Source: Scatophagus argus
Lineage: Eukaryota > Chordata > Actinopteri > Scatophagidae
DNA: 64,000 nt
Reading direction: 5' to 3'
Assembly: GCF_020382885.2 (NCBI RefSeq)
Contig: NC_058512.1
Coordinates: forward strand, 5,730,802 to 5,794,801
Shown here: one piece after another, positions 1,443 to 60,400 of the stretch
Layout: each line of letters begins with the position of its first letter
Numbering within the stretch: the first letter of the stretch is position 1
Notes under the pieces: model-generated
Database searches by the model: none
Seen by the model: the letters and a program-made list of their open reading frames with translations, nothing else
Told to the model about the DNA's origin: nothing
Made by a program: the position numbers and the translations under genes

Positions 1443-4336
1443 ATGGACAACAGCAACCATCCCTCATATGAAGAAGCTCCAGCTCGGTCCCTCCTCTTCA
1501 GAGCTGTTGGGCTTTTCACTGGAGACATGCATCTCTGCAGAGAATGGGTGAAAAGTAGGTGATGATCTTATCTTGTCTTCTCTGATGAAGACAGCTGATC
1601 AAACTGAAGTCACTATCTATCAATGACAGGACAGGTTGTGGTAATCCAGCTGCTGGACTGGATTTTCCGAGGAGTGGCCCAGGTCATGTTCGTCAACAAC
1701 CCTCTAAGTGGGCTCCTCATCACTTTAGGTCTCTTCCTGCAGAACCCTTGGTGGGCCCTGAATGGTCTACTGGGTACCCTTGTGTCCACTGTGTCTGCCA
1801 TCTTACTGGGGCAAAACAGGTCAGATAGCATCTCCCTATCCTTATTTGACTTCATCATAGATGAAAAAAAAAAACATTTTCCTCCCGCCAGGAAGCCATT
1901 ATTACTGTTTGTTTCACTTATATTCCCCGGGGCTCCATTTTCTTTAGCTTTCACACTGTGCTATTTTCACAGTTGTGTTTTTCACTTAATTGTGTTTTGC
2001 TGTCATGTTGACTACATCTGTCACACTCACCTCAGGGAAGCCATATCAGCGGGTTTATATGGCTACAATGGAACCTTGGTGGGCATACTGATGGCTGTTT
2101 TCTCAGCCAAAGCGAGCTGGTACTGGTGGCTGTTATTGCCAAATGTGTTCATGACCATGTTGTGGTGAGTGTTCAATTCATCTGATTCATTTGATTGCTC
2201 ACACATGGTAACTGCACACTATAAAAAAGCTATAAAAAGAGACTAAAGCAACAGCATGCAGTGCAAATCAGGAAACAGGTCACCCAGGTTGACTTTATCT
2301 CTTTCAAAAGAACTGAGCCTCTGCTAAGCCCCACAGCCTTAATTACTATCATTTTTTTCCATTCTTGCAAGGTACATATGAAATCTAGAGTATTAATGGT
2401 AGCAATTTACCACTTGAAACACTTAGAGTAGTGCCTCACTGCTCATATTTTCAAACAGTACATCTCAGTTTTAATGTTACAAGACAAAAGGCTTTGAGGA
2501 CTGGGACTAACTGATGTGTTTGACAAAAGTAATGTTCAGGTAATATCCTGACTTATAAGTTTGACTGAGGTTGGTGGAGCAGGATGAAGCTACCAGTGTT
2601 ACCCCACACTTTAACCCACAGCAGGTGTGCTAGCAGTTTAATCCCACAAAAGTTGGCCAATGCAACGCTTGGCAAAGCTTGGCAAAGCCAAGCGTCACAC
2701 TGTGGGAGGGTTAGGCTACTATAGGCAAACAGACGCATGTCTTTGCTAGCTAAAGTTAAGATGTGAATTTCTATTTGTTCACATAGAATGGAAGTGAATA
2801 TTTGTTAATTTTGCATTTGGGTGGCTGTGAGAGCACGATTTGCCTTTCCCTCTACTCATTAATACATGTCTTGCTTCTGTTCGCAGCCCAGTGGTCTCCA
2901 GTGCTTTGTCCTCAATTGCCAGTAAATGGGACGTCCCAATATTCACCCTGCCCTTTAATATTTTGGTGTCTCTGCATATTGCAGCGACAGGAGCTAATCA
3001 CCCCTACTTTCCAGAGGTACAGTGGAACCCTGTCATGTGCAAACAAGGTTGTGCATGATGCAAATGAAAGTTTAGCCTACTTTTTCTGCAATTTCAGATG
3101 GATATCCAACCAAACTACCATCTGTACCCTTCTAATGACTCCATCAAAAGCCTCAATATCTCTCAGGTATAACAGGAACATTATTGGACCACTAGCTCTT
3201 TGAAAGTCTCCACACAATCTAAATTATACTGTCTAGATTGCACATATGTTATTTTAATTAATAAACGGCGCTACTTGTTTAAATTGTCAGTAAATGGAGG
3301 CTTTCCATTTGCAGCTATTCCTGTCAGTGCCAGTTGGTGTTGGCCAGGTGTATGGCTGTGACAGCCCTTGGACAGGAGGTCTCGTACTTCTGGCCCTGCT
3401 GCTTTCCTCTCCAACTATCTGTTTTCATGCCATGTTAGGCTCTGCTGCTGGCGTCCTGTCTGGTAAAAAGACCCACCATTTGCATAGTATATGCATAATA
3501 TGCATAATGTCTGTTGAAGCTACAGCAGGAGCTTTGGCTCTTCAAAGGGCACCATGGCATTATGGTGAATGAACCATGGCATGTTTTTTCGAATAACGCT
3601 GTAAAGCCTGTTTGTTTGCCAGTTTTTTTCTGACATTTGTGCAATCTTTTACTGTTTAATAATGAATTACAATGTTCGGTGCAGGACTTGCTCTGGCAGC
3701 TCCTCACAAGGATATTTACTCAGGACTGTGGGGATATAACAGTGCCTTGTCCTGCATTGCCATTGGAGGGGTCTTCTATGTCATAACATGGCAAACCCAC
3801 TTTCTGGCTCTAATATGTGGTAAGACTGAAAAACAACACAATCAATATGCTCCTTCACATACTATTAGAAAAAAAATCTTCCTTAAAAATGGAAAAATAT
3901 GTTTCCTTCCAGCACTTTTCTGTGCATACATGACTGCAGCAATCTCAAAGCTGATGTCTGTGGTAAGTCCGAATCTTTCTTCCTGAGTCAAACATGGTAA
4001 GTGTCATCTGAACACCCAGATGTCCCTCATATCATGTGTCATGCTCTCTCCTATGACATCCCCTTTCAGCTTGCATTACCAGCCTGCACGTGGCCTTTCT
4101 GCCTGTCGACTCTCATCTTCCTCCTCATTTCCTCTGAGATCCCAGCCATCTGCAGACTGCCTTTGTCTGTGGTCTCCTACCCTGAGGAGAATCTGCGCTA
4201 CAAGAGAAAATTAAAGGCCTCGGAGGAAGCTCAGCACCATCAGCAGAGCAGCAGTCAAGAAGAGGCCCAGCTGAAGGAGGATGGAGGTCCGAGTGTCCAG
4301 TTGGTGGTGGACAGGGACTGCAGTGAATCTGTATGA
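1443..4336 (+). CDS. slc14a2: Urea transporter (SLC14 family), 9 exons, 409 aa
   Basis: This is a facilitated urea channel of the plasma membrane, acting in gill, kidney and other epithelia of fish. Coding exons are 1443-1554, 1630-1819, 2036-2164, 2887-3016, 3098-3166, 3315-3462, 3685-3819, 3913-3962 and 4070-4336; all have GT-AG introns and sum to 410 codons. Family blocks are clear: [11 protein letters not shown] and NPWWALNG in exon 2, GYNGTLVG in exon 3, and the two-fold urea-transporter signature (VPIFTLPF at residues 160-167; LPACTWPF at 324-331). [15 protein letters not shown] lies in exon 6 and [13 protein letters not shown] in exon 7. The length fits a single-unit UT. The start [11 protein letters not shown] was chosen because it is the first ATG in the exon and gives a short hydrophilic N-terminus. 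The C-terminus ends in a Gln/Glu-rich tail. SLC14A1 and SLC14A2 cannot be separated with certainty by eye; the synteny fits either. Confidence 0.93.
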
Positions 4337-10013: not shown

Positions 10014-13000
10014 ATGGTTCTGATCTGGACTCAGTTCGGTATGAAGCACAAAAATGTCAATGTCAAGTGCAAAGTGCGAGTTATGCACAGGGGTGACAGC
10101 TCAGGCTCATCATCATCAGCGGTAAGTACTTTTTCTTTTTTTAAAATCACCAATTAAATCATCAGTTACTCAAATTGTAGTAAGTCAGATATACAGCTTG
10201 GATGTTTAAGTTTCATACAAGGCAATGCTGTACCGGTGAAGCCGGCGTAAAAGTCAGCTTTGAAGTGTGTTTAATGATCAGTGATTAATGATGCTGTGGG
10301 TCCATTCAAACGCGTGAGTCGCTGATTTCGCGTTCAGCCAATCGCTACAGAGAATCTCAGTCGTTGGGGGAAATCTTTTGCCCCTCACGGGTCTCCCCCC
10401 CCCCTCCCCCCTCTCCATCTCTTACGCTGTGTAAAATTCATGGATATGCAGGGCAGAGATGAGGGTGTTTTCCCAGAGAGTTTGTTTTTTTTGGTCCTTT
10501 TTTTCCCGGGGCTGAATTTCTGAATATTAATAGATGCTGTGCAGCAGTTGGTGTGGAGGATGTGCAGTACATCATCCATCCTGTTTTGCATTCTAGAAGA
10601 TGTACGCCTATTAGTTATTCATCATCGGCTGTTTTGCAGCGTCTAAGAATGAGAACTGACGTATGAGATTTGGGGGGAAAAAAAGCTTTTATGAATGACA
10701 AGTATTAAAGGTCTAATGGCCCATTGTTCTTGTTTCCACAGGAAAGCAGCAGGTCTGAGCAGGACGCACCCTGCCTGTCCATCAAGCCCTCAGGCAAGGA
10801 CTTCTACAAGGTCCTGGGTGTCTCCCCTGAATCCAATGAGGACGAGATCAAGAAGGCCTACAGGAAGCTGGCTCTCAAGTTCCACCCAGATAAGAACAGC
10901 GATGCGGACGCAGAGGACAAGTTCAAAGAGATCGCAGAGGCCTACGAGATCCTGACTGACCCCAAAAAGAGAAGCATATATGACCAGTTTGGGGAAGAAG
11001 GTGAGACTGAGGGAGGATTTATATAGTTGTGATTTCATTTACAATTGAAATATCTCAAATATTATTAGTGGCTAATTATTGAAGCATAAGCTGGTGCATC
11101 AACTCTTAATGTCAACATCAAGGCTAAATACTGATGTGCAATGGGAAGATAAAGACTGAAACATTGTTGATGAATTATTAAGAGTGTAGTTTTCCTTTAA
11201 ACTAAATAGCTCTGTAGTTCTGTAAACCTTCTACAAGGATAGCGTGAATGAAATATTAAATAAGGAAGCGGTTTTTAATTGAACTCTTTTTGTTGTCTCT
11301 GTGTTTTTTAGGCCTTAAAAATGGAATGTCACTGGCAGGCCAAGGCAAAGTTTTCCGCCATAATTTCCAGGGTGACCCCCACGCCACCTTCTCTTCCTTC
11401 TTCCATGGCTCCGACCACTTCGACATCTTCTTTGGCTCCGGCTTTGACAGCGAAGATGACCTCTTCAACCCCTTCAGACGCTTCCCCTTCAACCACATGG
11501 GTGGGTTTTCTGGCCAAGACGGCGGGCTGCGAAGAGGCCAGCGGCGGCTGCAGGGCGATGAGGTGGTGCACGACCTGCTGGTGACCCTGGAGGAGGTAAT
11601 GCACGGCTGCACGAAGCACGTGAAGATCACCCGCTGCCGCCTCAGCCCCGACAGCGGCAGCCTGAGAACTGAGGAAAAGGTGCTGAATGTGGTGGTGAAG
11701 AAAGGCTGGAAGGCGGGCACCAAGATCACCTTCCCCAGGGAGGGAGATGAGACACCCAACAGCACCCCTGCAGATATCACCTTCATTCTCAGGGACAAGG
11801 AGCACTCCCAGTACAAAAGAGACGGCTCCAACATCGTCTACACAGCCAAGATCACACTCAAAGAGGTGAGTTTGGTGCCTTTGCATGAAGCTCTGAGGTC
11901 TGTCAGAGTTAGGAGAAAGGCCATCAGTCCTGATCAAATGAATTATACATTATGAAACATGCGACCGGTCTATAAGTAGATATAGCATGAAACCACTTGC
12001 CCCTGCACAGAGAAAAGCTCAAATCCATACACCATTTTTTTATCTTTACATAACTGTCAAATGATGCAGTCTCTGAAATCTAAGAAAATCAATAATAAGG
12101 CAGAGAGGGTAATATCTGAACACAGTGTTCTGTTTTGAGCCCCCCCACTCCTCCCCCTGCTTACAATGGGCTGACAGACCCCCACTAACAGAACAGCAGC
12201 AGCAGCCTGCCAACGCCTCAGTTACCTCACGAGCCCCTGCAGAGTGAGAGAGAGCAGCAGCTAAATTTAGCCTCAGCGCTGACTGCCCCCACGAATCGCA
12301 CTTGACTCTGGCTCTCAGCTACTATGTGTGCTGCAGACTCCTCTGCCTGTATGAGGCAGGCAGAGAGGCAGCATTTTTTGGCTCGCTCTGTCGCTGGCTC
12401 TCACTTCTACCAACCCACACACAGATTAGCAGGGTAGCAGTCACAGAGACTGGCATTTCAAAGAGCTCCTCCATCTTCCTGCAGCTCCTTTCAGTCACTA
12501 AAGCACTTAACTCCCACGCACAGCCAGAAAATAGTGCAACGATTATAACATCCGCAACACCAGTTTGTTGCATAACACTGAAAATAGTGATGCTTTTACA
12601 AAGGCAGACGCTCCATATTTATCTGTTATGCAACTTGACACTTTAAAAGATCAGGCCTTTAATTTTTTCTGTCATTGTTGTAAGTGTACTTCATCCCAGC
12701 CAGTCCACTCACAAAGCCTCATGAAACCTGTAAATATAACCAGTCTACATAAGTAACTTTTTCTCCCTTTTGCCTCCTCCAGGCTCTCTGCGGCTGCACA
12801 GTTAACGTCCCAACACTTGACAACCGGATGATGCCTCTACCATGCAGCGATGTTATCAAGCCAGGTGCTATCCGACGGCTGAGGGGCGAAGGTCTGCCCC
12901 TGCCCAAGAGCCCATCCCAGCGAGGCGACTTGGTGGTGGAGTTCCAGGTGCTCTTCCCCGACAGGATCCCACCACAGTCCCGTGAGATCATCAAGCACAG

Positions 13001-13016
13001 CCTGGGCCAGTGCTAG
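10014..13016 (+). CDS. dnajb5: DnaJ/HSP40 subfamily B co-chaperone, DNAJB5-like, 4 exons, 384 aa
   Basis: It stimulates the ATPase of HSP70 through its J domain and hands over unfolded clients. Exons are 10014-10121, 10742-11000, 11312-11865 and 12783-13016 (385 codons). Residues 1-54 are a separate basic/serine extension (includes [12 protein letters not shown]). The J domain starts at KDFYKVLGV (residue 55), with the HPD triad at 84-86. A Phe/Gly-containing linker with HATFSSFF and [13 protein letters not shown] follows, then the two beta-sandwich client-binding domains (from about [14 protein letters not shown]) and the [15 protein letters not shown] and [12 protein letters not shown] blocks of class B HSP40s. 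The C-terminal words VIKPG and RRLRGEGLP favour DNAJB5 over DNAJB4 and DNAJB1. The linker differs from mammalian DNAJB5, so this could be a fish paralogue. The start is the first ATG in the 5' exon. Confidence 0.9.
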
Positions 13017-14455: not shown

Positions 14456-14954
14456 TGTTTTTTTTTACCTCAGTATACTTCTTCCAGCACTGTATCAGAC
14501 ACTGCAGTCCACAAAATCCCATTTCAGAGCAGGAAAATCATCAGTCCAGCAGTCCGACTATCTGCTGCCATCTTGTGGCCACTGGCTGCTACAACAACGC
14601 AAAACTTCCTGCGCATTAATAGGACACACCTGTTGATCTGCGCGGCTGTCAACTGACTGCGTGTCGCGTAGTCGTCCATGATCGAGCACTTGCTTTGTTA
14701 ACGCTGACAATATTATTCTGTAGTTATGAAGACCAGGGGGATAAAAGGCAACACTTACATTAGGAGATCATTTAAATTCAGGATACAAGCTGGCATGTTG
14801 CTGCTAAGTAAGAACAATATATACTTTAAAAAATATATACAAACACGAAGCAGTCCGCATTGATTGAACCACCTGTGCATTCAGACACAACGTGAAATCT
14901 CAATTGAGATCAGCAACTCCTTTAAAGTTCACCCTTTATGTCCCCTGGAATGAA

Positions 14955-17043
14955 ATGTCGCAAATAGGTCAGCCCACATCATCCAATCTGACTGAGGGTC
15001 ACCCCGTGACAAATCTGACTTTGGTTGTCCTGTTGCTGATACCCTGCGTGGTCATCCTGCTTCTGCTCAACTGCCTGTTTCTGGGTTACAAGTTACTGAT
15101 CCTGTCAAAGAACAGACACAAGCGAGAGGACACAGAGGAGATGCTTCTGCAGTCCACCCTGCACAGAGTCAGACGAGTATCCGACGTGGCTTTCCCCCCG
15201 CTGCAGGACGGGAGGAGGGCCTACATGTCTCTGTCGGAGCCGGTCCTGCCCCATCCTGTCACCTCTTCCAGGGCATCGTCCAGGGAGAGAGCCGGGGTGG
15301 ATCACAGGTTCCGGCTCCTGAGGCCGGATGGCGCCACCGGTTCAGGGTCCCTGAGGGCGCCGAGCACCATCCGAGCTGCTTCTTCTGCGGCTGGTTTCAC
15401 CCCGAGACTCGACCAGGCCTCCGGGTCACGGACTTACAGCGTCAGTAAAGGGGGCTGGTGTAAAAGTGCACCAGTTCTACCGCAGTCCAGTGACTCAGAG
15501 GCTGAAACCAGAGTGAACCTGGTGCCGCCAAACTCTCCAGTGGTGAGTGTAAATAACTCAATATAACCGGGAAGAGGCCTAATGAGTCAGGCGACATTTC
15601 TTACAGTTGTGGAGGTGGACTGATATTTATTCAAATATTTCTGCAGGTACCACAGCTTAAAAATATGTTGTGCTACCATTAAACATATTACAATTTTGAC
15701 TTTGACATTTGGCAGCCAATGCGGGCAGGTTCCTGCTCTGCAACTGCACTCACCAGCATGGCCGGATTAACTTGCTTTGGGGCTTTGGGGCCCTGGAGCT
15801 GCTGGACCCCTCTGAACACCCTTTTACTCTTCCTCACCCTTCATGGTGTACTTTATTCCTGGAATAATACCCAGTGTTTTAAGTGTGGTGATTCAAATTA
15901 ATACAAATTCAAAACCATGGAAGCACAACATAAGTGAGGGTTTTATGACTAGATTTTGACAGCAGTCCTCAAACACACCTCATTGTTTAGGGGCTCTGCA
16001 GTTCTCAAAGATCACATGTCAGTCATTGTGTTTAATCAGACACAAAATACCAAAACTTAATGCCCACCCAAGATCCAACATAATGAAAGAAGTAATAAGT
16101 CTTCCTACTCTAAAGCGTGGGGTCTGTTTTTCCTTCTTCTACAGCAGCAGACAGAACATGTGGGTCTTATTCGTCGGAGCAGTACTTACGAGATGCTGAC
16201 AGATGTGGTCCCAGGTGTTGCAGCATTTGACAAAGCAGACGTGGTGTGCGAGTACACCAGCCCGCCTTCAGAGGCATCCTGCCTGAACACATCTGCAGTG
16301 GGTCCTGGACTGGACAGCGACTTTGGTGCAAGCGCAGGTATGCTTCAGAGTCCTTCAGCTGCAACGGAATCAGTATGGCTGCCATTTATAACTAATGCAC
16401 CAAGAGGTGCAATTTATGTGGACAGTCATTTGTTATTATATTTCTCAGCTAATCAAGAAAACAGCTGTAGATCTCTTTTACAGACAGTCAAAAATGTTTT
16501 GTCATCTGAAATATATGAATTCATCTGCTTGGTGAAATTGCCTAATACAATAACCAAATTGGCCTACAAAAAACGGTTTGGATTTGATTAAATGCCCTGC
16601 GAGAGGAAAATTGTCTGGTGATGGTGAATTAGATTTATTACTCAGAGAGTCGGGGATTTACAAGCAACAAGTTTCAAAGTTGAACTGTTTTATTTCAAGT
16701 CCCTCGTCTGCTCGAACTTGTTTTGTGTAGAGCTAATTGATTTGGATGTTTGAGCTTCACTGCGCGGAGTTTTGACCCTGAAAGGCTGATTTGAGCAATA
16801 TTTGCATATCTGATGCACACTTTTATTCAAAGTAAAGAACTGATGAAGACAAAAATTCTTAAATACTTGTGTTCAGGAGTCTCCCTGCGGATTCTGTCGG
16901 CGGACAGTGACGGTCTGTCAAACGGCGTTCTGGCTTCAGCGTTGGAGTGGGATTATTACGACCCCTGCTATGTCAAGCAGAATAACGTACCCAAACATAA
17001 ACATCACAGGCCTGCGGTGCACGCCAAACAGTACTGGGTGTAA
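14955..17043 (+). CDS. hwa: Huluwa, maternal dorsal determinant membrane protein, 3 exons, 315 aa
   Basis: Huluwa is a maternally supplied plasma-membrane protein that promotes Axin degradation, stabilises beta-catenin and sets the dorsal organizer in fish and frog embryos. Exons are 14955-15542, 16145-16337 and 16877-17043 (316 codons). The N-terminus is short and outside-facing, with two NLT glycosylation sites (residues 11-13, 20-22). One transmembrane helix spans about 21-43 (LTLVVLLLIPCVVILLLL), then comes a basic stop-transfer segment (KNRHKRE). The long cytoplasmic tail holds the PPNSP motif (191-195) and an IRRSSTYEML motif (205-214). From memory, PPNSP and a SLRRSST-type motif are the functional motifs reported for zebrafish Huluwa, whose published length is about 294 aa. 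The conserved tail ends in HAKQYWV. ATG 14955 is the first in-frame ATG; the frame is open upstream, so an extra 5' exon is possible. The exon 2 acceptor is CAGCAGCAG, so one- or two-residue slippage may occur. Confidence 0.87.
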
Positions 17044-17397
17044 TAAGTCTCAGTAGTAGTTTTAATGTTTGTTTTATTATTTATTTCATTTAAATAACCT
17101 ATGATTTTATTTTTTTGTTGCCAAGTCTTTATTTATTCCACTAATTATCACTATGACTTCACACTAGTTTAAACCGACAATTTGATGATTGCACACTGAA
17201 CACACACTTAATTTGTCCAACTGTGAAATATTTTCTCTGCACCTTCTCTTGAGTTATTGTGAAATATTTGCTGTGTGTTTCCTTCACTTACATCAATATA
17301 AATTAGAGTCACTGTTTCACATTATAGCGGGCTGTTCAGCCTGTTCACGCTACGATTTAAATTCACTTCTATTGTTTGAAACGTTTTCACTCTGACC

Positions 17398-17403
17398 AAT
17401 AAA
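17398..17403 (+). terminator. Polyadenylation signal AATAAA of hwa
   Basis: AATAAA lies 355 bases after the hwa stop codon; a second copy occurs at about 17455. It sits only about 330 bases from the convergent atp5f1a signal. Confidence 0.5.
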
Positions 17404-17727
17404 GACTAATTTAGTAAAGTGTTTCTTGATTACTTTTGTCTCACAAGCAGAATTAATAAAGAATGCAATGTTTAAATAAACGCAACTTTCCTTTTCCTTT
17501 ATCAGCAAATTTCCATCTGCTTAATTCTCGACAAATGAGAGGTGGGAATTTAAGAAACCAACAGTTTAGATCAGCTCGCCTTTTCCACTGTGTTATAACG
17601 ATCAGTTGGAACAGCAAATTGTAGAGACAACAATAGTTTCACCATCACGGAACATCAAAACACAGAGTGACCAAGCAACACTTCTCTGAACCCAGTAAGA
17701 GACAGTCAAGTCCACTAGCTGGAATAC

Positions 17728-17864: not shown

Positions 17865-22342
<4,478 letters not shown>

Positions 22343-23924: not shown

Positions 23925-25365
23925 GTAAGTTACAACTAGCGCAGCCGATTTAAATGCTAAATTGGCTATCGCTTTGAGATAACATTAGCCGTTAGCCGTT
24001 ATCCTGCTTTTACGCCTCTGGGTGGCTAGATACTGCTTCCATTTATAGGATCTTGCGAGGCAGCTGTCATGCAGCCTGAACATTTTCCCATGACTTGTCG
24101 TCTTCTCGCCAAGTTTGCGGAGCGAAAGGTTATGACCGAGGTTAGCTTCACTACGCAGCTAAAAGTAGTGTCTTCATCCGAGGCTGTGTTAGCATGAGCT
24201 AGCGACAGACACAACTAAAGTCATTAATTCAGCCCCTAAGAAATATCTCTTTGCACACACTGACACACACACTGATATATAATGGACTTTCACGAAATCA
24301 TTCTCATGCTTTGTGAGATGTAAAAGTAGAATAAAAAGGTAAACGTTTATTGCACTCATAAGCTAGCCAGCGTCAGTTGCTGACTAGCAGTCATTAATGA
24401 CGATATCTGATCAAAGTATATATTAAATTACTAATGCGATTATTTGTTGTTGTTTGATCTGAACACTCGGCACTTATGCATCATGTTAACTGAGCACAAC
24501 ATGCAGAAAATGAGCTTAATTTCATGCGATTTTGGAAAGAGAAAAAAGTAATTGCTTTACTATGCCACTAAAAGTTATAGTTGAATCGGAGAGTTACATG
24601 TTTAAGAACAAATGTCCAAAATAATATTTATGTAACAATTGCCAAGAAATTATGGTAAATGCCTTATATTTGATGAAAACCATGATTTATTGTTCATAAA
24701 TTAATGTTATTTATTCCACGCATATGTATTTGAGGTACCTTAGACGCAAAGAGAGTGGCAGCACAAACAATTTTTAGTACAACGAAAGTTTGACATTTGT
24801 CCATGGGCGGGCTGAACTTATTTGGCACTGCGTGCAGCTGTGTTAATGTCAGCTGTGGCTTGGCAAACATGACACTGTTCAACTTCTAGATTTATTTTGT
24901 GTTTGACTGGGTGTTTTCTCAAGTTGGATATGTTTCCCTGGCCAGCTTTGCGTTTTGCATTACAGACACTGCAGCGAGTGTTTTTTGCGTCAAGTTTAGA
25001 AAAGTGTAACCATGCCTGCAGGGGTGATTTCGTCTCACACTCTGTCTTTCTCTTTATGCTGAGTTACATCCATCCAGATACACTCTTGGGTATAGATATT
25101 GATAGGCACTGATTTGATTTAAAATGATGTGTCACTCTGTAATACCAGCTTCAGTTGGTCAGCAGCCTCCAAAGTAGAGTTTGATACCCAGCCATAATTG
25201 TGCCCAGTGCTCTCAGACATCCAGCATCTTGCACAAAATGCATGTGTTGCCCATATTTAGACTATGAGTTGGAATTAGTGGTATGTTTTTCTTCCAACAG
25301 GTGAGCTCTAGTCCAGGCACATTGGTCCATGTCCGTTGGACCTTTGGGCTCTGGGCTCAACTAGT

Positions 25366-28300
25366 ATGAAGATGGCTGATTCAGAGAAGGCAGAGGAATT
25401 TGTGGATGCTGAGTGCCCGCTAGAGTGCCTTGATGAAGTACAATCAGCCACAACTCTTCAGGGAGAGCAAGATGACCATCTGAAAACAGAGACCACCACC
25501 AGTACCAGCTCACCACCAAGGGAAAAGGAGGCAGACAGCCCTTTGAATACAGAGGGGGAGCAGAGTCTCCTCTCCATGCCATGCCTGATGAAAGAGCTCC
25601 GCAGAGACTCTCCAGAGTCCCAGCACGCCTCTACAGGGAGTGACAAACCCGTGTCTCGTCATATCTATGAGAGTGACTCCTCAAACCCCTGCATGCTCTC
25701 CCCTTCATCCAGTGGCCACCTTGCTGACTCAGACACACTCTCCTCAGGGGAAGAAGGTGCTGCTCCTCGCACTGGGGAAGAAGAGGGAAGCATGGAGGCT
25801 GCAAATGATCCTGGAGAGGCTACAGGAAGGCAAGCATCTGCCACGGCTGCAGGGGGTCGAAAGTCTCGGCGGTCACATTCAGAGAGTGAGATGCCTCCCA
25901 ATGCAATGGCTGCAAAGAAAAACCGCTGCCAGCCCTCCATGATAGCAGCAGGAGGGCAAGAAAAACAAACCAATGGCAAGCTGGCAAAAGTGAAAGGTCA
26001 CCGGAGCCAGAAACACAAGGAACGGATGCGTTTACTGAGGCAAAAACGAGAGGCAGCAGCACGGAAGAAGTATAACCTGCTGCAGGACAGCAGTACAAGT
26101 GACAGCGAGCTCACGTGTGACTCCAGCACCAGCTCATCCGAGGATGAGGATGATGACACTTCAGGAGGTAGCAAGACAATCAAGACGGATATTTCAGGTA
26201 ACGTCCAGTGTTCACTACACATGCTAATAACACAGTACTACTACCACTGTCCATAGTAATACTAGCAGTTACTTAGATTTCCAGTGCAAAACACTGTATC
26301 ACATGGTAATTATGGTGATCTAAGTCTATAGCCATCATATTAAAACATAGAGCTTAACAGTAAGAGGCCTGCATGACCTTACAATTTCAGGCAACCCAAA
26401 CAAAGTCCTTCATTTGCCTCATTTAGTAAGAACATGTAATGTGGCTGTACAAAGCCTCTGCAATATTAGATCAGTACAAGCACTGCTTTGTTTGTCTGTT
26501 TGATCAGTCACTTTCTGTTGTTGTTTTATTTTTAATTAATTTATTTTTTGGGGATTGTTCCTCACTCATCTGTCTTCACTCACCCTGTCCTTAGATACAT
26601 AGACTGTATGTATAGAAGGGCCTGTGGCCGCTCACTTGTAGTAATGTACGTGTTTTGTTGGAACTTTGTCTCGTTGTCTCATTTGCATGCTGTGGAAGTC
26701 TAGTGGACATTCTTCAACTCATGGAATGATATAAACTGGGTTTTCTCAATTTAACCCATATTGCAACTTCTGCAGTTCAACAAGAGATCCATTTATATCC
26801 TTAGCCTTTGCTGTAAGTAGACAATGGAGTATGATCTCACTATGCTAGTCTGAGCTGGAAGACTTGTTAAGTATATCCTGCTTTTTATTGTCTCTGCCTA
26901 TGGCTTTTAGGTCTATCATATACTGCACTCTGCCAACACAAGAGATGATGAAGCTTTTTAGAATTGCAAACAGGTGGTTCTCATACTTATAATGGGTTCT
27001 GTAGCACATTTGATGAGTCAGATGGCTCTTGTATCATCAGCTAGAAAATATTAATGCCTATACAGTGCTGACCGACAATGGCTTTATGCTGTAAGCTAAA
27101 ACTCAGCAGAAGAAACACCGACAGTATGGTTGCAACATTGACCTTATGTTATTCTCTTAGTTGACCTCATGTTTCATGATGACGGTAGAAATCTCTTTGG
27201 TGAGTTGAGTTCCCATAAGTAGCTACTGCCAGAGTGGTATGCACAGGCCCTACCACTGCTGTTGATGGAGAAGTCACTTTGTTTGCCTTAGGCTGATCTT
27301 ATCACTGTGTTCTCATTTCTTAGAAGAAAACCTTATCAGTTTGTCCTGCTAGGCAGTTTTTCTTTTAAATTAAATTAAGAATTTGAGAGTTTGTACCGAT
27401 TTTTGTTTAATTATTGTCACGTTTTTAAGTGGAACCAGTTTATCAAGTCTTATTTTTCTTCAAGAGTATCATAGTGGTATTATAAGGTTTGCCTCTTTGG
27501 GTTGATGCTCACCCTACTGCATATTTTACAAAGTTGATTGATGATAAGACATACTTGCTGCAATTTATCATAGACTTGTGTTGAATTTGCCTCAAAAGGG
27601 TGCATTTACCTCAGAGTCTCTCCGGGTAACACATTTTGCAAACCACAGTCACTGAATCAGCTCCCAGAGACATCAGTTATCTTACTTCAGGGACCTGTAC
27701 TACATTAAATGTTTTCAACCATTTTTACATCCCGCACACAGATTTGAGTGCTACAACTGCATGATGTAGTCCATCAGCATGAAAGAGTCGATCTGCACGT
27801 AACCAAAAACAAACTCATTTTCTCTTTAATACAAAAGTCCACCTCCGAAGCATGAACGTGCTACTGTATTTTCTTATGGCTTGGCCTCAATGTCTTTAAA
27901 GCTGGCTTCAGACGTGCATCGGAGAGATCCAGAGTGGGCGCCCAGATTCATGGGCTGCTGGACAGCGGTGCGTGGGACAGGAACGGCATCGGCAGTGTTC
28001 TGGAGGAGGCCATGACGCGCTTTGCTGTGATGCAGCGCCAGACTGAGGAGCGCTTCCGCATCTGGATGGAAAAGCTTGCACACCTGGACTCAGACAACGA
28101 CTCGTCCAAACGCTCAAGTGATGCCGTAGAGGGGCAGCAGCAACCTGCCCAGGGGGCACGCCCATCCCCACCCAGTTCCTACTTGCCATCATCAGAGTCT
28201 GCAGAGACTATGGCTGCCTACATCTTGGCACGAGAGAACAACAGTCTCGGCCCCACCCCTATAAACAACAACATCCTACCTGAAGTGATCACTCAGAATG

Positions 28301-57489: not shown

Positions 57490-60400
57490 CTAGTATTTTG
57501 GGTAGAGAACCCTGGCGATCTGCCCGTCAGCCTTCTTAGTGTCCAACCACTTTCCACAGAGGAAGATGGTGGTGACGCCATTGGCCGTGTTAGTGACTTC
57601 AACACGATCCAGCAGCCAGCCAGGGTTCAAACCAGAGTTGTCATGCTCCACCCGAACCTTCTGCAGCTCTCCCATGTCCAGCATTTCCAGCAGGAAACGG
57701 TCGGTCTGCTCACGTTCGAAAAGGTTGCGAAACTTCTGCCGCAGTTGCCGACGGCCTGAATCTCCATTGGAGCCGTAGATAGTGATGAAAACATTGGCAT
57801 CTGTACCTGCTCCTTTCTCATCACCTGTGATGACGATGATCTCGTACTTGACGGGCACCAGGCTTCGAGCTTTACTGGCAAAGCTCTCGATGGACTTTGT
57901 GCACTCAAAGGTCAAGAATTCATCCCTCTTTGGAGAGAGAGGCACTAGGGCATTGCAAATGAAGATGTACCTGGAGGTAAAGATACAGAGAAGTACAAAG
58001 AAAGAAAGAATTTGTTACCAACAAATCCTAAGAGTATGAGAAAGAATGAATGGATGTAGACGTGGGTCATCTGTGAGCAATAGCTGGTGTTTTACTTGTT
58101 TCCCAATTCTCTTTCAGTAACAACGACCTCCTCCACATGCCAGTAAACCTCTCCCTTTACTTTCTTTCCATCCTTGGGTGTGTGGCCCAGGCAGACAGCA
58201 GCGATGTCACCCAGGTTCTTGGACGAAAACTCAAACCTGTCAACATTTCCCCTATAATGAGAGGGAAATAAGCCTGTAAGAATGAGTGGCCATTCTCTAC
58301 TCTACAGGGTGGTGTAATGTCATGATGCAGGGAATGCAGCGTTGGTCTGAGCTAAAGTACTTGGTGCTGGTGGCATTATCATAATAAGTGTGAAGGGAGA
58401 AATAGAGGGAGAGAAAGCACCTTTTTCTCAAGCTTTTTTATGCAAACAAGTTGCAGGTCATTGAGTTAATCTTACCGCAAGAACCTCTTCTTCTTTGAGG
58501 AGTTCTCCATTACAAATTCTTTTGATCGGCCCTTCTTCCCCTCAAGTATAATCCAGGCATTTTCTTTCGTTTCAGCTTCATCCGTGTCTCCAGTTGTGAC
58601 ACAAATTTCATACTCTTTTAGAGATAAAACATGAACAGGTAAAAAATGACTTGTCATGCGCATAAAGATGCAATAGTGTGAAAATATATGGAATAAATTT
58701 AAGTAATACTCAAAACCCAGTCCCATTTTTATACTATTTGAGGTCAGCATTTTTTCTGTATTAGCCATTTCATGTATTTGCCTTCTGTAAATCTGTCGCT
58801 ATATGACATTCTGTATTCTTAACTAATACAACTTTTAAACGCATTGTGCGTTATATGTCCTTACTTGTTTTCTCATTGAGGTCTAAGTAGTCATTGTTAG
58901 CACAGGCCAATTCTCTTATTATCTGTCCATCGTCATCATTTTTAGCAAGCCAGCGGTCACAGGGGAAACGAAATGTTTTGTCCATGATCTCATCCTTCAC
59001 TTCAATATAATCCAAGTGCCATCCTGGAGCAAGACCTGAGTGTAATGGGATCATGAAACAAACAAGGCAGCAAGTAAAAATGTTGTCAAGATCCGGCAGT
59101 CTTTCAAGCCAATGGGTAAAAATGGCATCAGCCCCTCGGGTTTCCTCAAAGTCAGATGATGATGTAGCAGTGGTTAATATTAGTCTATGAAGCCATCAAC
59201 TGTCCAGGTTTCATCAACATTATAAAAGTGGTGACTCAGACATCTCTTGTGGTGTCTGGATAGACCAGACCAGATTTATCTTAGCTGTGTGATTATAACT
59301 TAAGGTTACATGTAATCTTAGGAAATTATGTAGTACTTTACCCCACGCAGATTTAACGATACCTGCAGAGTAACTGTTCATCTGAGTGGCTGACCTGTGT
59401 TGTCGTGCCAAACTCGTACTTTGGAGAGCTCTCCCAGACTGAGAATATCCGAGAAGCGAAATGTGTCCACCTGCTTGCGCTCAAACTTGTTGGACTTGTT
59501 GCACTCTTTCAGTGCCAGTGTCCCAGTGTCTCCATTTTCTCCAAAAATGATGATCCACACATTGGCATCAGTGCCTGCCCCTGAAGAGACAGGAAAGAAT
59601 TACCTATTTGCAAAAATTAATCAGGACTTCTGCTTCTCTCTGTGTCCCTTTGTCCTATTTTCTAAACATAAATCACTGGATTGGATTAAACAAAGCAGAA
59701 TATGACAAACAAACAGCATTAAGCTCATAGAAATGTTGACAAAAAATGGCCTTGACCCCATCTGTGAGCAGTTTGTTGTGATTATAAATTCAAAAGTGTT
59801 TGCACTTTGCTTTAGATCTTTTAAATTACAATTCATCTCTAACTATGTCAGAGTATACAGTTTTTTGTTGAATTACTTGTTGAAATAAATACTTCGCAAA
59901 GCAGAGGTATGAGAAGGTAATCATACAATCAACAACAGAAGAATCAAGCACAGAATAAGGTGAGCAGCAGAGAAAGGAGCATTCTTTGATGAAACAACGC
60001 ATCTAGAATCCTGCTGTGCCTATTTTGTTACAGTGGGTGTATATTAGATGATGATGAGCACAATCCTCACTCGCTCTGCAGCAGGTTTTCATTGTCCCAG
60101 TTTTGAACGTGTCTGTACACTAAGCCACAAATGCAATATTTTAATTAAGAGCTCCGTTGTTATAATGAGCAACAAAAGTGTTTGCAATGTTAGAAATCTT
60201 ATGTTAGCAATTGAATTTTATCTTGTTGTTACCTTTAAATGATTATTTTCTTTACATATGCCCTCCTATATGCACATGTACATACTTGATATTCAGTGCC
60301 TCAGTACCTCAGTCCACGCACAATGATCATAAGGGCACCATTTCCTTATGCACAGCATTGCCTATGTAGTGTTGCCTGCTTGCATATGCCTCTATGTGTG

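Follow-up and report, generated by a model that had tools for sequence, protein, structure and literature searches.

A complete gene, very probably huluwa, in Scatophagus argus

The dorsal organizer of vertebrates is switched on by Huluwa (Hwa), a maternal membrane protein, supplied by the egg, which sets the back of the embryo. Its original description is reportedly that of Yan et al. 2018. The question raised by the present locus of Scatophagus argus is whether a gene of the plus strand, read as huluwa (hwa) in an earlier note on the same DNA, is a complete orthologue, and in what respects it resembles or departs from the known protein. We analysed the window, i.e. the whole stretch of 64,000 nucleotides (64 kb) in which the gene lies. 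The gene has three exons, with limits predicted from the sequence:

14955..15542, plus strand: hwa exon 1, codons 1-196 (ectodomain, transmembrane segment and tail through PPNSP-V); open frame with a GTGAGT donor
16145..16337, plus strand: hwa exon 2, from codon 197 to the first base of codon 261; contains RRSST; acceptor TTCTTCTACAG
16877..17043, plus strand: hwa exon 3, with the TAA stop at 17041-17043; C-terminus QYWV

The product has 315 residues. Both introns are bounded by GT and AG, the first in phase 0 (exon 1 ends in CCAGTG and the intron opens with GTGAGT) and the second in phase 1, and the reading frame is intact over the three exons. The start is at 14955, the first in-frame ATG downstream of a stop at 14865; between that stop and 14955 no in-frame ATG was found. 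The coordinates, reading frame, motif residues and intron positions of the earlier gene model were all reproduced. The features of the protein are the following:

14985..15020, plus strand: two N-glycosylation sequons NLT (residues 11-13 and 20-22) of the ectodomain, read from the sequence
15021..15083, plus strand: transmembrane segment, residues 23-43 (Kyte-Doolittle maximum 3.15)
15525..15539, plus strand: PPNSP, residues 191-195; Ser194 is the counterpart of zebrafish Ser168
16172..16186, plus strand: RRSST, residues 206-210, inside IRRSSTYEML (205-214)

The product consists of a 22-residue ectodomain, one transmembrane segment, a basic juxtamembrane stretch and a cytoplasmic tail of about 271-272 residues. 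We scanned it by the Kyte-Doolittle method with windows of 19 residues: the top window (residues 23-41) has a mean of 3.15, and past residue 56 a single window rises above 1.0 (starting at residue 213, with 1.07). The single strongly hydrophobic segment bears out the single-pass topology that had been proposed, and the two NLT sequons (residues 11 and 20) lie ahead of it, in the short glycosylatable N-terminus. A third sequon, N244, is situated in the tail, where glycosylation is not expected under a single-pass topology. PPNSP and IRRSSTYEML stand exactly where they had been claimed to be; in the six frames of the whole window PPN[ST]P and RRSST occur once each, both within hwa. The two motifs do straddle intron 1, as had also been claimed: V196 is the sole codon between PPNSP and the intron, exon 2 opens with Q197, and in the joined gene model RRSST starts after nine codons of exon 2. 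At the other end of the protein, the C-terminus QYWV (17032-17043) is similar to a class II PDZ ligand; YWV being expected in 7.8% of shuffles, this likeness is weak and we do not claim it.

These traits can be set against the published account. According to the excerpted text of PMC11576741, Hwa crosses the membrane once, can dispense with its ectodomain and has a large disordered intracellular domain, in which PPN(S/T)P and then RRSST are conserved; Li et al. 2024 (same excerpt) give the RRSST region as residues 181-190, with SST at its end (188-190). The zebrafish gene is drawn with exons E1-E3 in the legend of Fig. 4 of PMC12758452, so that the three-exon structure is common to both species, as far as an exon count from a figure legend goes. 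Topology, order of PPNSP and RRSST and number of exons thus agree with the zebrafish account, and no competing family appeared. The 315-residue protein has no family match in Pfam, none in NCBIfam (a prokaryote-oriented library) and none among PDB sequences. When relatives were sought in prokaryote genome contigs and in viral contigs, 374 and 18 pattern matches respectively were obtained and none was confirmed, as expected of a vertebrate gene. Since every trait of Hwa which can be read from a sequence is present and no other family matches, we conclude that the gene is, almost certainly, a complete huluwa orthologue, matched to Hwa by its published motifs, topology and exon count. The family is already known, halibut included, and the Scatophagus argus gene adds one further member to it. 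In halibut, hwa was identified by name as a maternal transcript in a transcriptome study (PMC12722812, excerpt), and the zebrafish gene is reported in the excerpt of PMC11652594 to be expressed specifically in oocytes and eggs; the excerpts of PMC10620976 and PMC8282044 do not mention hwa.

We searched the reading frames of the window for neighbouring genes with Pfam, which gave matches for 11 of the 36 frames tried:

1608-2168 and 3294-3572, plus strand: frames of a urea transporter
10709..13016, plus strand: DNAJB-type gene, upstream of hwa (DnaJ frame 10709-11026; DnaJ_C frames 11260-11955 and 12753-13016)
18673..20364, minus strand: ATP synthase alpha/beta-family gene, downstream and convergent (two frames only, 18673-18927 and 20131-20364)
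25312-26256, plus strand: protein with an Arkadia N-terminus (RNF111_N)
57490-58014, minus strand: PLAT domain
58472-58798 and 58851-59195: two partial PLAT matches that fall short of the curated cut-off

The flanks announced by the earlier note, dnajb5-like and atp5f1a, were found as to their kind: a DnaJ/DnaJ_C gene upstream on the plus strand and ATP synthase alpha/beta-family exons downstream on the opposite strand. The label dnajb5 is tentative, the closest solved relative of the upstream gene being DNAJB1, and the label of alpha subunit (atp5f1a) is that of the earlier note, Pfam resolving here the alpha/beta family only. From 1608 to 58014 the order is: urea transporter, DNAJB, hwa, ATP synthase, RNF111_N protein, PLAT domain. 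On human 18q, SLC14A2, ATP5F1A, C18orf25, RNF165 and LOXHD1 share one neighbourhood. The neighbouring frames of the window may correspond to these genes, and this neighbourhood of human 18q would then be a possible place of the loss of hwa in mammals.

The sequence which follows the stop codon was then considered:

17044..17420, plus strand: hwa 3'UTR, about 377 nt, its end placed from the AATAAA at 17398

It contains UUCAC six times (at 17158, 17283, 17316, 17344, 17362 and 17386), for 1.03 expected. UUCAC is a motif of vegetal localization in the Vg1 and VegT mRNAs (PMC1973087, PMC5974320); the Vg1 element has four copies in about 350 nt (PMC1973087), as against six in 377 nt here. The excerpt of PMC11576741 reports that hwa mRNA is deposited vegetally, and zebrafish vegetal mRNAs are, according to the excerpt of PMC8184788, enriched for motifs with a CAC core. 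The cluster is perhaps a vegetal localization element of the hwa mRNA, and we propose it as a candidate from the motif count. It is also a real possibility, a little short of probable, that the six copies reflect mere compositional chance in an A+T-rich 3'UTR. The motif was spotted by eye before any test, so that the lead is post hoc; it does rank first among the five-mers occurring at least three times in this 3'UTR, but the significance of its Poisson P (7.7e-4) would be lost on correction for 1,024 five-mers. Chance has to contend, on the other hand, with the fact that the motif had been named in the literature beforehand and that six copies were reached in just one of 5,000 dinucleotide shuffles. 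It must also contend with position: when segments of 377 nt were taken in steps of 50 bases on both strands, three of the 2,546 had six copies, with starts at 17051, 17101 and 17151; at least five copies were found in seven segments of the plus strand, all overlapping the hwa 3'UTR, and in none of the minus strand.

Other counts were made along the same lines. Among 338 non-overlapping segments the maximum for UUCAC is 4. The E2 form occurs eight times in the hwa 3'UTR and at most seven times in the 338 segments, and CAC occurs 16 times, a number that five of them reach. The density of UUCAC is 15.9 per kb in the hwa 3'UTR versus 0 to 3.3 in seven control stretches (the dnajb 3' side, both introns, the upstream sequence, the CDS, the downstream spacer and the ATP synthase 3' side, with assumed limits). 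UUCAC is found twice in antisense in the 3'UTR. UGCAC is not enriched there (two copies, a count reached by 35 of the 338 segments). Neither is VM1 (5 versus 3.3 expected): the UUCAC cluster is what the hwa 3'UTR has in common with the Vg1 and VegT elements, and the lack of VM1 enrichment favours chance again, as does the report that CAC motifs are insufficient for localization by themselves (PMC1973087, PMC5974320). The 3'UTRs of zebrafish vegetal mRNAs are reported to be longer than others (mean 1.06 kb versus 0.6 kb; PMC8184788, excerpt), whereas that of hwa is 377 nt long here; the main text of the same paper does not mention hwa. A localization element of hwa was not found in the open-licence literature; the main Hwa papers from before 2024 lie outside this search and may map such a site. 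Elsewhere in the 3'UTR, between 17077 and 17137, one can notice two UUAUUUAUU nonamers (17077 and 17129) together with seven consecutive U (17110), of a kind linked to the decay or stability of maternal mRNAs.

We come back to the protein and to the surroundings of Ser194. Phosphorylation of the zebrafish PPNSP serine, Ser168, is reported to increase tankyrase binding and Axin loss; Cdk16, Cdk2 and GSK3beta can each phosphorylate it, and the arginine at +4 in the zebrafish PPNSPVLR is said to favour Cdk16 (all in the excerpt of PMC11576741). This arginine is missing here. Exon 2 has three in-frame tandem NAG acceptors (CAGCAG after TTCTACAG, at 16145-16153), the choice among which would drop one or two glutamines directly behind the PPNSP switch; the residues at +3 and +4 are QQ, QT or TE according to the acceptor, none of them basic. 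Ser194 is therefore predicted to be less reliant on Cdk16. Cdk16 would not be the sole kinase in zebrafish either, since maternal-zygotic cdk16 mutants are reported to be normal (PMC11576741, excerpt).

Hwa binds tankyrase directly, according to the excerpted part of a review (PMC11348223). Canonical tankyrase-binding motifs, narrow (R..[PGAV][DEIP]G) or loose (R....G[^P]), were not found in the protein. An extended class, one residue longer, has been described as R1-x5-G7 with no P following (PMC10706912, excerpt), and one stretch of the tail fits this pattern:

15312..15338, plus strand: R120-LLRPDG-AT128, candidate one-residue extended tankyrase-binding motif, by pattern fit

We suggest that R120-LLRPDG may dock tankyrase; this is a candidate motif, picked after the sequence had been seen. 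Its nearest parallel in our comparison is the extended motif RSRRPDG of RNF146, with which RLLRPDG shares R-x-x-R-P-D-G and a spacer from R1 to G that is longer by one residue. The RNF146 motif scored 0.53 in Table 3 of PMC10706912 (excerpt), where only confirmed motifs of the proteins listed exceed 0.5; this score belongs to RNF146, not to Hwa. The strict pattern R...PDG[^P] is met in 0.57% of 50,000 shuffled tails and R.{2,5}PDG[^P] in 2.0% of them, both patterns being post hoc. Looser extended patterns match Hwa at several further places. One of the forms tried, R.{4,7}G[^P], was discarded as uninformative because 99.5% of 50,000 shuffled tails carry it, and the PDG form alone was kept. A tankyrase-binding motif of Hwa was not found in the open-licence literature (again, the main pre-2024 Hwa papers are outside that search and may map one), and huluwa does not appear in a review from 2026 on the proteins that tankyrase binds (PMC12940019).

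RRSST is flanked by two further patterns:

16154..16198, plus strand: E200HVGLI...Y211EML, putative dileucine-type and YxxPhi-type sorting signals, by pattern match

We take E200HVGLI and Y211EML to resemble endosomal sorting signals. The combination occurs in 2.2% of shuffled tails and was chosen post hoc; it deserves attention in view of the report that ZNRF3 routes frog Hwa to lysosomes (PMC11348223, excerpt).

Upstream of the start codon, the ATGs at 14938 and 14950 open one shared frame (MSPGMKCRK and a stop, 14938-14967) which overlaps the start codon of hwa in a different frame. Should these ATGs be transcribed, translation of Hwa would need leaky scanning or reinitiation. One may then wonder whether the gene is a decayed or non-expressed copy, in a lineage which no longer uses Hwa as dorsal determinant, for such a short frame could reduce translation; but the coding frame is intact over three exons with GT-AG sites, both essential motifs are kept, and hwa is expressed maternally in halibut (PMC12722812, excerpt), so that we regard decay as very unlikely. 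Still less credible is an unrelated single-pass protein which owes its PPNSP and RRSST to chance or to convergence of short motifs (such as a phospho-receptor tail of the LRP5/6 kind): the lack of a family match, the length of each motif (just five residues) and a comparison with Hwa made by description leave it some room, but when the 271-residue tail was shuffled 20,000 times, PPN[ST]P arose in 9 cases and RRSST in 39, never the two in one shuffle, the order of the motifs, the topology and the three-exon structure fit Hwa as well, and the LRP motif PPP(S/T)P is not present in the 315-residue sequence.

With the gene read as a huluwa orthologue, the mechanism reported for zebrafish and frog can be carried over to Scatophagus argus. 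The hwa mRNA would be produced in the oocyte and held at the vegetal pole, perhaps by way of the UUCAC cluster of its 3'UTR. After fertilization it would shift to the future dorsal side and be translated into a plasma-membrane protein, in which the phosphorylated serine of PPNSP (Ser194) would promote the binding of tankyrase 1/2. Tankyrase 1/2 would mark Axin for destruction, beta-catenin would be stabilized without a Wnt ligand and the organizer would be induced. Gene structure, topology, both motifs and the motif enrichment of the 3'UTR are established here. By analogy with zebrafish and frog, we infer that Scatophagus argus Hwa would be expressed, become phosphorylated, dock tankyrase and induce an axis. 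Three features are post hoc leads, drawn from sequence: the copies of UUCAC, the candidate extended motif for tankyrase and the absent +4 arginine. Taken jointly they would describe a lineage wired unlike zebrafish, where R120-LLRPDG docks tankyrase, the +4 arginine preferred by Cdk16 is lost, tandem acceptors vary the adjacent residues and the UUCAC cluster places the mRNA; we judge this whole picture unlikely as it stands. The docking motif and the localization element are candidates which, in a complete orthologue such as this, can both be tested directly in zebrafish maternal mutants.

Finally, the gene can be compared with the known systems. Zebrafish Hwa, in the excerpted sources, is likewise a single-pass protein with a short ectodomain, PPNSP followed by RRSST in the cytoplasmic tail, and three exons. 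It differs by the numbering of the phospho-serine (Ser168, versus Ser194 here), by the residues which follow (PPNSPVLR with Arg at +4, versus PPNSPV-QQ, or QT or TE through the tandem acceptors) and by the spacing of the motifs: from P165 to R186 there are 21 residues in zebrafish, as counted from the residue numbering in the excerpt of PMC11576741, versus 15 from P191 to R206 here. Halibut offers another fish hwa with a maternal transcript, the comparison being one of expression only (PMC12722812, excerpt). The tails of LRP5/6 share with Hwa a membrane-anchored, proline-directed phospho-switch upstream of Axin (PMC11576741, excerpt). The present protein is nevertheless no member of that family, for it has no PPP(S/T)P in its sequence and no LDLR-type or other Pfam domain: it carries PPNSP instead of PPPSP, in one copy, and is devoid of the large ectodomain. 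Unlike LRP5/6, Hwa is reported to be active without Wnt ligands and receptors (PMC11576741, excerpt).
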